Part shown: positions 9,708 to 60,095 of the stretch, piece after piece
Layout of the letters: every line of letters begins with the position of its first letter
Position numbering within the stretch: position 1 is the stretch's first letter
Virus record (IMG/VR): IMGVR_UViG_3300040810_000410
Span: 1 to 63,081 of that record
Length of the DNA: 63,081 nucleotides
Source: a virus
Reading direction: 5' to 3' (one strand)
Notes under the pieces: generated by a model
Database searches by the model: none
What the model saw: only the letters and a program-made list of their open reading frames with translations
What the model was told of the DNA's origin: nothing
Position numbers and translations under genes: made by a program

Positions 9708-10529
9708 ATGCCACAATCACATACACGCAGTTTACTGGGTGACCATCAGGAAAATCATAACACTCAAGAGTCTATGGTTAACCAAGGTCATAATGCAATG
9801 AATCAAGACCCCAATGCGCAAGGAGGTCCAGATACTCAAGCGTCAGTAACACCAGAGCATAACTGGGAGAAGCGTTATAAAGACTTACAATCATGGTCAT
9901 CTAAGCAATTACGCGAGAAAGACGATCGGATTAAAGTTCTAGAACAGCAAGGTGTTCCTAAGATTCAGGTGCCTAAAACACAAGAAGAGCTTGAGGCCTT
10001 CAAAGCACAGAATCCAGAGACATTCGCTGTAATCCAATCCATGGCAGCTAACTTATTCCAGCAACAAATGGGAGCGTATGATCAGAAGATCGCAGAGATG
10101 CAAGGTACGTTATCACAAACTACTGCTGAAAGAGCTATGCTACGTTTGAAAGAAGTACACCCTGACTATGAACAAATCATGAATACTGATGAGTTCCATC
10201 ACTGGGCACGTATGCAGTCAGACGAAATCCAAGGTTGGGTCTATAATAACCCTGACAATGCTGAAAAAGCAATACAAGCACTGTCTTTGTTCAAGTACAA
10301 TAGTGGTTGGGGTAAAACGGATTCACAAGAACAACCAGCGCAATCAGGTGCAGACTTAGCGGTAACAACTACTAACGCAGTCGTAGAGCCTGGGGCTGTT
10401 GATAGAAATCATCCTGCGTACCAATGGAAAGAATCGGAAATCGGTTCGTTAAAACCAGCGGAGTTTGAAAAGTGGGAAGAACATATCACACTAGCTCATC
10501 GTGAAGGTCGTATCTTGTTCGGTCAATAG
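9708..10529 (+). CDS. Scaffolding protein
   Basis: A 273-residue hydrophilic helical protein immediately before the major capsid gene. The N-terminus is Asn/Gln-rich and disordered, a central coiled coil spans about residues 52-150 (EKRYKDLQSWSSKQLREKDD onwards), and the C-terminus is charged with EKWEEHITLAHREGRI, as in scaffolds that bind coat protein. It would guide procapsid assembly and then leave. Assigned mainly from position, composition and length. Confidence 0.82.
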   Translation: MPQSHTRSLLGDHQENHNTQESMVNQGHNAMNQDPNAQGGPDTQASVTPEHNWEKRYKDLQSWSSKQLREKDDRIKVLEQQGVPKIQVPKTQEELEAFKAQNPETFAVIQSMAANLFQQQMGAYDQKIAEMQGTLSQTTAERAMLRLKEVHPDYEQIMNTDEFHHWARMQSDEIQGWVYNNPDNAEKAIQALSLFKYNSGWGKTDSQEQPAQSGADLAVTTTNAVVEPGAVDRNHPAYQWKESEIGSLKPAEFEKWEEHITLAHREGRILFGQ

Positions 10530-55007: not shown

Positions 55008-55272
55008 CACAGTCTCCCATGATTATCGCAGCATCCCTGTAGATACTTACACCATTGTCAAATATCACACGATCCGCAGTTATCTTATCGACTCCCCATT
55101 CCAAGTCAGGTCTACTCTTTGGAAAACCTATGCAAGTCTCAGGGTAATAACTAGGTTGTGCTAGTTCTACCTTTGGAGTAAACACAAGACTGTGCGCTGA
55201 GTTACCTATGAACACAGCCAACGCTATAATAAAGAGGAAACCTAGTACTTGGTTCTTATATAGTCTATCCAT
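55000..55272 (-). CDS. Membrane-anchored small protein, 90 aa
   Basis: Start MDRLYKNQVLGFLFIIALAV (55272). The N-terminus is an uncleaved signal anchor (VLGFLFIIALAVFIGNSA, about residues 9-26), followed by a periplasmic-type domain with two Cys (PETCIGFPKSRP; MGDCDA) that may form a disulfide. Overlaps the macrodomain gene by eight bases. Role unknown; envelope location predicted. Confidence 0.65.
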   Translation of the reverse strand: MDRLYKNQVLGFLFIIALAVFIGNSAHSLVFTPKVELAQPSYYPETCIGFPKSRPDLEWGVDKITADRVIFDNGVSIYRDAAIIMGDCDA

Positions 55273-55741
55273 AGACCACCACCTTAACGTTGACATCAGG
55301 AAGGTGCTTAACCATCTGTGTCATTACGTAACCCCAATCACCACCACCGATACCACAGCCAATCATTGGAAACCAAATAGTTTCACCAACGTACTGTTCG
55401 TTAATCAACTTCAGTGCCGCAGGGAATATGCTTGGTATAAAGTCAGCACCTGTTTGATACTGAGTATAAATGTTTAAGCATTCAAATGAATCGATAGGTT
55501 TCAATGCACCATTAATGCGAGCCTGAGTTACCTGTGCTGTACTAAAGTCACCTAGCTTCTTCACTGCACCCTTTGGTGACCAGCGTTGGTCTGCTAGTGG
55601 AATCTGAGGAAACTTACTAGCTAACGCACCAGCTATCCCTGAACCCATAGTATGGAAACAGTTACAACCATGAGCTATTATCTTAGCTTCACCGCTTAAT
55701 GCTAAGGCAATCAAGTCACCTTTAATTATTTCAAAAGACAT
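55265..55741 (-). CDS. Macrodomain protein (ADP-ribose binding)
   Basis: A 158-residue single macrodomain. Ligand-binding segments: IKGDLIALA (residues 5-13), IIAHGCNCFHTMGSGIAGAL (about 21-40) with the Gly-rich loop, and the phosphate loop PMIGCGIGGGDWG. Family enzymes bind ADP-ribose and may remove it from proteins or nucleic acids, or dephosphorylate ADP-ribose-1''-phosphate. In this genome it could act with the NAD+ pathway or counter ADP-ribosylating defences (inference). Confidence 0.88.
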   Translation of the reverse strand: MSFEIIKGDLIALALSGEAKIIAHGCNCFHTMGSGIAGALASKFPQIPLADQRWSPKGAVKKLGDFSTAQVTQARINGALKPIDSFECLNIYTQYQTGADFIPSIFPAALKLINEQYVGETIWFPMIGCGIGGGDWGYVMTQMVKHLPDVNVKVVVYG

Positions 55742-58382: not shown

Positions 58383-59627
58383 TTATAAAGTGCTGTTCCA
58401 TTTAGTTGTCTGATTAGTAACAGAAGTTTCTACAATTTCGATTACTACTTGAACATCATCTGAATTCTTGTAAGCATGTTTGTTACCACGGATAGCTATT
58501 AAGTCATTATTGTTAAACATTAGGGTTCTCGTAACGTACGGTGCATCCTTATCTTCTAGCGCCTTATAAGCTGTCCATGACATGTGTTCTTCAGCACCAT
58601 CCTCGTAAAACGCATCTTCATCTTCATCTTTATACTCTTTACCTATTAATGGGTTAGGGTACTTAACTGTGATACTCACGATATTATTTATCATTGAACC
58701 TAACTCGTTAACTAATTGGTAGGGTTTTCCACCATCCTCAGTATTCGGGATGAGCTGATCTACTCGTACCATGGTCTTAACTTCAGGACGTAATGTAGGT
58801 ACGTTAAGGATTGCAGTGATTTCTTCAAGAGACTCATCTGGATACTCTGCCCATTCTTTGATAATCTCATTCATCACATCGAAGCTTACACCGTAACGCT
58901 TAGAGTAAACAATACAAGAAGCCTCTTGATCTTCTGTTAAACCATGAGCCTTACATAACTGTTGTACTACTTGTTGCTCAACACCATCGTAGATGTACAT
59001 GTATCTCATACGGCCTGGGCGGTCTGTAAGGAAATCACTTAGCATGTAGTGAGAGTTATCAATTAGTACGATCAAGCGTTTACGATTGTTTGTACCTTGG
59101 AAGAAGTTAAGCATTTCATCTTGACGATCAGCAGCAATTGCAAGACGATTATGTCTTGAGTCACCTTCATCATCAGAACCTTTTAGTTTACTGATGTGCT
59201 TAAGGAATTCATCAAAGATGATAGTACATTCTTGAATACTGTTAAGGAACTCAAGGTACTTAGGATCTGTACAGAATGAATCAGATACATCGATCACTGG
59301 TTTACCTTGGGCAATAGTTTGGTGGGCTAGTACAGCAGACAATAGAGATTTACCTGCACCTTTCTTACCGAATAGACCTACACCTAAAGCCTGAGGACTA
59401 TTAGAGTAAGCTTTCATGATACGTTCTGAACGTGCTTCAGCAGAACCGAAGATCGTCGCTGGTAATTCCACTTGGTCTGTCTCTTTCTCTAAGTAGAAAC
59501 CGATCATTGGATTAAAGGCTACCTTGTAGTAACCAGCAGGTACTGTATCAACTACTGAGCCTTCTTGGTGAATGAATGGGAATACATTAGCACCAGAGAT
59601 ACGGTATTTAGTTGAAGTGTTAGACAT
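58383..59627 (-). CDS. P-loop (AAA-type) ATPase
   Basis: I start at MSNTSTKYRISGANVFPFIH (59627), preceded by GAGGAAAA; a longer ORF runs back into the tRNA-like element. The 414-residue protein has a small N-terminal beta domain, Walker A FGKKGAGKSLL (about residues 85-95), Walker B TIIFDEFLKH, and a likely sensor segment RKRLIVLIDNSH, then DRPGRMRYMYIYDG. An acidic C-terminal part contains a DEDEDAFYEDGAEEH stretch. Probably a remodelling ATPase acting with the 674-residue protein downstream. The unusual tRNA-like element occupies its leader. Confidence 0.8.
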   Translation of the reverse strand: MSNTSTKYRISGANVFPFIHQEGSVVDTVPAGYYKVAFNPMIGFYLEKETDQVELPATIFGSAEARSERIMKAYSNSPQALGVGLFGKKGAGKSLLSAVLAHQTIAQGKPVIDVSDSFCTDPKYLEFLNSIQECTIIFDEFLKHISKLKGSDDEGDSRHNRLAIAADRQDEMLNFFQGTNNRKRLIVLIDNSHYMLSDFLTDRPGRMRYMYIYDGVEQQVVQQLCKAHGLTEDQEASCIVYSKRYGVSFDVMNEIIKEWAEYPDESLEEITAILNVPTLRPEVKTMVRVDQLIPNTEDGGKPYQLVNELGSMINNIVSITVKYPNPLIGKEYKDEDEDAFYEDGAEEHMSWTAYKALEDKDAPYVTRTLMFNNNDLIAIRGNKHAYKNSDDVQVVIEIVETSVTNQTTKWNSTL

Positions 59628-59666: not shown

Positions 59667-59792
59667 TCGTCGGGGCTGGATTGTAACCAGCGTCCTCCCC
59701 AATGTTTAATGGTTAGCCCCGAGGGAATCGAACCGCTCGTCACAACCATTGGGCTAAAGGTGGGGCGCTCTGTCATGCTGAGCTACCCGACG
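59667..59792 (-). tRNA. tRNA-like cloverleaf interrupted by a second tRNA-like minihelix
   Basis: Minus-strand fold: acceptor CGTCGGG/CCCGACG, T8-A9, D stem GCTC/GAGC, anticodon stem CCCCA/TGGGG, variable AGGAC and T stem GCTGG/CCAGC. All 21 pairs are Watson-Crick, and size without the insert is 74 nt. The anticodon loop is 59 nt (59702-59760) where 7 are expected, with no U33, so no anticodon can be named. The D loop (AGCATGACA) lacks GG and the T loop is TTACAAT, both atypical. The insert (59710-59756) pairs TAGCCC with GGGCTA, holds a T arm with canonical TTCGATT loop and one bulged C, and encodes A-CCA. The outer element lacks an encoded CCA. It may be regulatory, a processing substrate or a decayed nested tRNA. 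Confidence 0.7.
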
Positions 59793-59811: not shown

Positions 59812-59835
59812 TAGGGCACCATCAGAGATACCCTA
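59812..59835 (-). other. Hairpin of the TAGGG / CCCTA family
   Basis: On the minus strand TAGGGTATC then GATGGTGCCCTA with two unpaired G. It follows the stop of the gene at 59859 and precedes the tRNA-like element, matching the placement of the hairpins at 51070 and 55781. Confidence 0.45.
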
Positions 59836-59858: not shown

Positions 59859-60095
59859 TTACTTAACGCATTCATCATACATCCAAATGCCACCGTTGTC
59901 AACACATTTCTTTTCCAAAGTTTCCTGTTGTTCCTTTGGAAGTTCTTTGTGTTGCTCAGGTGTGATCTTTGTATTTACTAGAACGCATTCAGCTTTATCA
60001 ATTGGATCACTTGAAGAAGGATCGCATGTTAAAACTCGAGGAACCTGTATCTCAATCTTAGGTTCTTCTGGAGGTAAACACAGGATATACCCCAA
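59859..60095 (-). CDS. Cys-containing periplasmic-type protein, start uncertain (possible frameshift product)
   Basis: The reading frame has no ATG near its start; only TTG at 60095. The product contains LCLPPEEPKIEIQVPRVLTC, a KITPEQHKELPKEQQETLEK helix and CVDNGGIWMYDECVK, with four conserved-looking Cys. It overlaps a membrane ORF (60058-60180) in another frame. Removing one G from the GGGG at 60090-60093 would fuse the two into a sensible 106-residue protein with two membrane spans and a Cys-rich domain. It may be a sequencing indel, programmed slip or true separate gene. Confidence 0.5.
   Translation of the reverse strand: MGYILCLPPEEPKIEIQVPRVLTCDPSSSDPIDKAECVLVNTKITPEQHKELPKEQQETLEKKCVDNGGIWMYDECVK

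Follow-up and report, generated by a model that had tools for sequence, protein, structure and literature searches.

A tRNA-like element with a mini-tRNA in its anticodon loop, probably degenerate, in the ATPase leader of a phage genome

The locus and its genomic surroundings

The window analysed here is the whole 63,081-base stretch of phage record IMGVR_UViG_3300040810_000410. It carries a 127-base direct repeat at its ends, which suggests that the record is probably complete. The best matches of the terminase are Pseudoalteromonas phage Slicky01, Vibrio phage CHOED and related phages, with 37-49% identity over the covered part, and the phages related by terminase are bacterial viruses. On the minus strand, a tRNA-like element is flanked by a 78-aa reading frame and an ATPase gene (phrog_2376). 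The start codon of the ATPase is 39 nt downstream of the element, which places the element inside the ATPase leader. The coordinates of the element, its parts and its neighbors are given in Table 1. A hairpin, AGGGTATC-TCTGAT-GGTGCCCT (8 pairs including G-U; 59813-59834, minus strand), is present between the promoter-like site and the element, and a gene for a macro-domain protein (PF01661) is located a few genes downstream, at 55265-55741.

Table 1. Features of the tRNA-like element and its surroundings, in 5' to 3' order along the minus strand
Feature	Position	Strand	Basis or remark
Promoter-like TTGACA-17-TATGAT, upstream of the element	59874..59902	(-)	11/12 consensus positions; match to consensus only
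Whole tRNA-like element (outer cloverleaf and insert)	59667..59792	(-)	ARAGORN -i20,150 call, same coordinates
Outer acceptor, 5' strand CGTCGGG	59786..59792	(-)	7/7 pairs with 59668-59674
Outer D arm GCTC-AGCATGACA-GAGC	59767..59783	(-)	4/4 pairs, pair probability 0.85; D loop without GG
Outer anticodon stem, 5' strand CCCCA	59761..59765	(-)	pairs with TGGGG 59697-59701
Inner mini-tRNA, acceptor base 1 (TAGCCCA) to ACCA	59710..59756	(-)	0/20,000 loop shuffles; layout as in L178, L209, L473
Alternative hairpin AATGGTT/AACCATT	59708..59750	(-)	pair probability 0.68-0.98; excludes inner acceptor stem
Inner linker ATGGTTGTGAC, replaces D and anticodon arms; contains GG	59739..59749	(-)	compare AAAGGAATCA (L209), AAGGGTATG (L178)
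Inner T arm GAGCGG-TTCGATT-CCCTC	59721..59738	(-)	bulged C needed for stem pairing
Outer anticodon stem, 3' strand TGGGG	59697..59701	(-)	partner of CCCCA 59761..59765
Outer T arm GCTGG-TTACAAT-CCAGC	59675..59691	(-)	T loop without C56 and R57
Outer acceptor, 3' strand CCCGACG	59668..59674	(-)	followed by A at 59667 and TCA; CCA not encoded
ATPase gene (phrog_2376), downstream of the element	58383..59627	(-)	leader contains the element

In its normal mode, ARAGORN identified no ordinary tRNA in the 63-kb phage genome. Ordinary tRNAs are present in several relatives; in the closest of them, G001, a Pro-Asn-Gln-His array lies upstream of the capsid gene. The terminase-portal gap of the studied phage (7228-7339) contains CTCAGCTATGCAATGTAGCAC, and in G001 (L136) CTCAGCTATGCAATGTAGCAC comes after the tRNA-His of the four-tRNA array. 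A four-tRNA array like that of G001 may have been lost from the terminase-portal gap of the studied phage.

When introns of 20-150 nt are permitted, ARAGORN calls a single gene in the 63 kb, c[59667,59792], and it made no call in intron mode on 60 dinucleotide shuffles of the entire stretch. The inner architecture, consisting of a T loop, a T stem, an acceptor and N-CCA at the correct spacing, was not recovered once when the 59-nt loop was shuffled 20,000 times. Taken together, these controls indicate that both the outer and the inner structures are beyond chance. An Rfam scan of the element returned no family at gathering score, and the tRNA model itself scored 12.9 bits, below its cut-off of 29. 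A group I intron was ruled out, as there was no Rfam match.

Anatomy of the outer cloverleaf and the inner mini-tRNA

A first-pass annotation of this DNA described four fully complementary outer stems of 7, 4, 5 and 5 pairs around a 59-nt anticodon loop, and all of its coordinates and pairings are correct. The outer stems are Watson-Crick throughout (21/21 pairs), and the 59 nt of the anticodon loop include the insert. The outer tRNA lacks the GG of the D loop, C56 and R57 of the T loop, U33 and an encoded CCA, its 3' end being A-TCA. The outer anticodon stem has a predicted pair probability of only about 0.2 in a folding model that is blind to tRNA tertiary contacts. Exact excision of the insert leaves CCTT joined to TTAAACAT, a residual loop of 12 nt with C at position 33 in place of a 7-nt loop with U33, and ARAGORN calls no tRNA in the excision product.

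Within the outer anticodon loop, only CCTT precedes the inner unit. The description of TAGCCC and GGGCTA enclosing a T arm with a TTCGATT loop, followed by A-CCA, is also accurate. The first-pass annotation overlooked the bulged C in the inner T stem, the mismatch at position 7-66 and the missing GG, C56, R57, U33 and CCA of the outer unit. The mismatch lies at the base of the inner acceptor and leaves it with 6/7 pairs. With this acceptor and the bulged T stem, the element is not listed by a strict detector that demands an unbroken inner acceptor and T stem. The folding model, which lacks tRNA tertiary contacts, assigns a probability of 0.68-0.98 to the AATGGTT/AACCATT hairpin versus 0.008 to the inner acceptor.

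Searches for the element in related phages

No relative carrying the element was found through the ATPase, a 422-aa protein or a 25-base stretch of the inner unit, and a blastn search of phages with the ATPase region had no matches. A DNA search of 33 related records produced two short matches: the first falls on an ordinary tRNA-Asn, in its 5' half, and the second inside a coding-like stretch.

Interrupted and nested tRNAs in other phages

Interruption of phage tRNAs by other tRNA-like sequences has a published precedent. Lak megaphages have tRNA introns, and one intron in a tRNA-Thr possibly itself encodes a tRNA (Devoto et al. 2019, PMC6784885). The same paper termed these introns enigmatic, and it refutes the earlier view that such phage tRNAs were undescribed. 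We found tRNAs with a tRNA-like intron again in Lak-A1. No account of how a bacterial host would remove Lak tRNA introns was found. Lak and the studied element have in common a phage tRNA whose anticodon loop is interrupted by a possible tRNA (PMC6784885). In Lak inserts, however, the inner unit comes after an extra hairpin and an A-rich stretch, no CCA is encoded, and the insert adjoins the anticodon, whereas the studied insert is a mini-tRNA with CCA in a degenerate outer tRNA.

KVP40-like Vibrio phages also have tRNAs with an insert of 40-50 nt in the anticodon arm (tRNA-Pseudo-3, -4 and -5). The 3' half of the studied element finds its best match, although a weak one, in the 3' end of Pseudo-3 (86% over 36 nt, E 0.03). 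In contrast to the studied insert, those of KVP40-like phages form a hairpin with a TGAYAA-type loop and contain no mini-tRNA. In the clusters of KVP40, V09 and phi-Grn1 (L149, L147 and L148), inserts of about 40-50 nt occur in pseudo or oddly named tRNA genes, and they have this hairpin in common together with a TTCTGCA-like motif. Judged by eye, removal of the insert from Pseudo-3 would yield a tRNA-Asn(GUU). The published descriptions of KVP40-type clusters that we found list pseudo-forms only.

Closer counterparts were obtained by scanning viral contigs for a T arm, a CCA and another T arm in close succession and then applying a structural filter to the fetched sequences. The viral and genome contig scans supply examples, not a frequency, and the counts are lower bounds among the matches listed. 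Many loose matches of the structural filter were discarded as ordinary neighboring tRNAs. Among the viral matches listed, at least three unrelated tRNA arrays contain a CCA-ending mini-tRNA in an anticodon loop: L209 (Gln), L178 (Ile) and L473 (Pro). The nested gene of L209 is identical in the overlapping contig L510. The sample of genome contigs gave no nested case among the matches listed and is unsafe as a contrast to the viral contigs.

In L209, L178 and L473, the inner unit begins precisely at acceptor base 1 and ends with CCA; cutting it out at these borders gives back a 7-nt loop that has U33, in a tRNA that is called by ARAGORN. The resulting loops are CTTTGGA in tRNA-Gln(UUG), CTTATAA in tRNA-Ile(UAU) and TTTGGGA in tRNA-Pro(UGG), respectively. 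Normal-mode ARAGORN detected no second gene of the same isotype in the fetched stretch (Gln in L209, Ile in L178, Pro in L473). The short linkers of L209 (AAAGGAATCA) and L178 (AAGGGTATG) contain GG, and the linker of L473 is longer, at 32 nt. The arrays of L209 and L473 harbor genes for HNH and other homing endonucleases among the tRNA genes, which could bear on the spread of inserts. A further tRNA-like call in L209, at 9712-9808, is 97 nt long and has an odd anticodon and a predicted insert of 22 nt.

The studied element resembles these three genes in having an acceptor stem, a linker, a T arm and N-CCA inside an anticodon loop. It differs from them in that their exact excision yields the 7-nt loop with U33 and that they reside in tRNA arrays, whereas the studied copy stands alone. 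Members of this class have a layout in common and no demonstrable sequence homology. A covariance model was abandoned because the aligner misregistered the anticodon stems of L209 and L178.

Three more contigs among the matches listed, L509, L169 and L127, hold a tRNA inside the anticodon loop of another, as the studied element does, but their inner unit is a complete cloverleaf. When the inner unit is cut out exactly, 8 nt remain in L509 and 10 nt in L169. Like the studied outer unit, the outer unit of L127 lacks the D-loop GG and the T-loop C56. The nested tRNA of L127 adjoins a relative of the phrog_1735 gene of the studied phage.

A candidate route for insert removal

In intact members, the borders of the insert correspond to the positions at which a tRNA is processed by RNase P and by 3' enzymes. 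Cleavage at the 5' end of the inner unit and after its CCA would free the mini-tRNA. The outer halves would stay together through their stems and would then be joined by an RNA ligase. Excision at tRNA-processing sites followed by ligation would fit genes of the L209, L178 and L473 type, with the enzymes and the ligation step being what we infer. The first-pass annotation had proposed that host RNase P could cut in the anticodon loop. The proposal is reasonable for the intact members, given that the inner units of L209, L178 and L473 start at acceptor base 1 and end with CCA and that taking them out leaves a normal loop.

Ligation is a different matter. No RNA ligase (PF09511, PF09414 or RtcB) was found in the contigs of L209, L178 and L473, which are short fragments, and the ligation step is therefore unsupported there. 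RNA-ligase families or RtcB are present in the phages behind L509, L127, L192, L225, Lak-A1, KVP40 and LR756511. In the complete-looking genome of the studied phage, PF09511, PF09414 and RtcB were all without a match, and only a DNA-ligase-like protein is encoded. An excision-ligation route is unlikely in the studied phage.

Interpretation of the element

The element has the layout of a nested tRNA but lacks the defining features of an intact one, and thus we do not file it as a member of the class. We consider it probable that this is a tRNA-derived nested element, a degenerate and non-decoding relative of the class, most likely a relic and possibly still folded and cut in the ATPase leader. 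The evidence for degeneracy comprises C at position 33, the 12-nt residual loop, the D loop AGCATGACA, the T loop TTACAAT, the bulged inner T stem and the Rfam score. The studied copy probably no longer reads codons. Decay of a nested tRNA had been among the original suggestions, and the loops, the excision product and the Rfam score agree with it, but the intact 21 outer pairs do not. Such pairing is unexpected for neutral decay at the level seen in the loops and hints that the fold may still be in use. Any role of the element in the studied phage is one that we infer.

A more specific account is tentative. Under it, phages would have a class of tRNAs with mini-tRNA introns, which the tRNA end-processing enzymes of the host would cut out at the RNase P site and behind the CCA, with an RNA ligase joining the outer halves; the studied relative would have lost splicing and been kept as a processed leader RNA. 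It is also possible, if doubtful, that the element is a working processing or regulatory part of the ATPase leader. Cleavage of the tRNA-like ends by host RNase P and 3' nucleases would separate or expose the ATPase messenger, and decoding would be irrelevant. Retention of the outer pairs with loss of the loop contacts is consistent with such a role, as is the position of the element close to the ATPase start codon and behind the promoter-like site. However, that site is a match to the consensus only, conservation in relatives is lacking, as none was found with the element, and folding disfavors the inner acceptor and gives little weight to the outer anticodon stem. An interrupted tRNA that still functions, its insert being spliced out during infection in the manner envisaged for L178, L209 and L473, would account for the similar layout, and the residual loop includes CTTTTAA, which resembles a Lys(UUU) loop. 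This appears improbable given the long residual loop without U33 that ARAGORN does not recognize, the loss of the D- and T-loop contacts and the absence of all three RNA-ligase families from a genome that looks complete.

The alternative pairings of the insert had been read as a possible fold switch. The complementarities are correct, the mini-tRNA and the AATGGTT/AACCATT hairpin are mutually exclusive, and the hairpin is predicted to dominate. Nevertheless, a perfect helix of at least 7 bp arises in 5.75% of 20,000 loop shuffles, and the linker TGG is in any event the complement of CCA. Because a 7-bp helix is this common by chance and the folding model is blind to tertiary contacts, a regulated switch is unsupported, and we regard a two-state RNA as very unlikely. 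Phages respond to anticodon nucleases by deploying tRNAs and repair enzymes, and this general strategy is what speaks for a decoy that absorbs host anticodon nucleases. The element, however, offers no recognizable anticodon loop for cutting, and nothing in the data supports this part of the first-pass annotation. Of these readings we rate the decoy as the least probable.

Implications for phage tRNA introns

Phage tRNAs with a tRNA-like intron were already known from Lak (2019), and the CCA-ending mini-tRNA inserts of L209, L178 and L473 were found here. The coincidence of insert borders with tRNA-processing sites, together with the normal tRNA that removal leaves behind, points to a candidate route for the removal of phage tRNA introns, in which RNase P and 3' enzymes would act first and ligation would follow. 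The studied copy may illustrate the appearance of a mini-tRNA-interrupted gene after loss of function.
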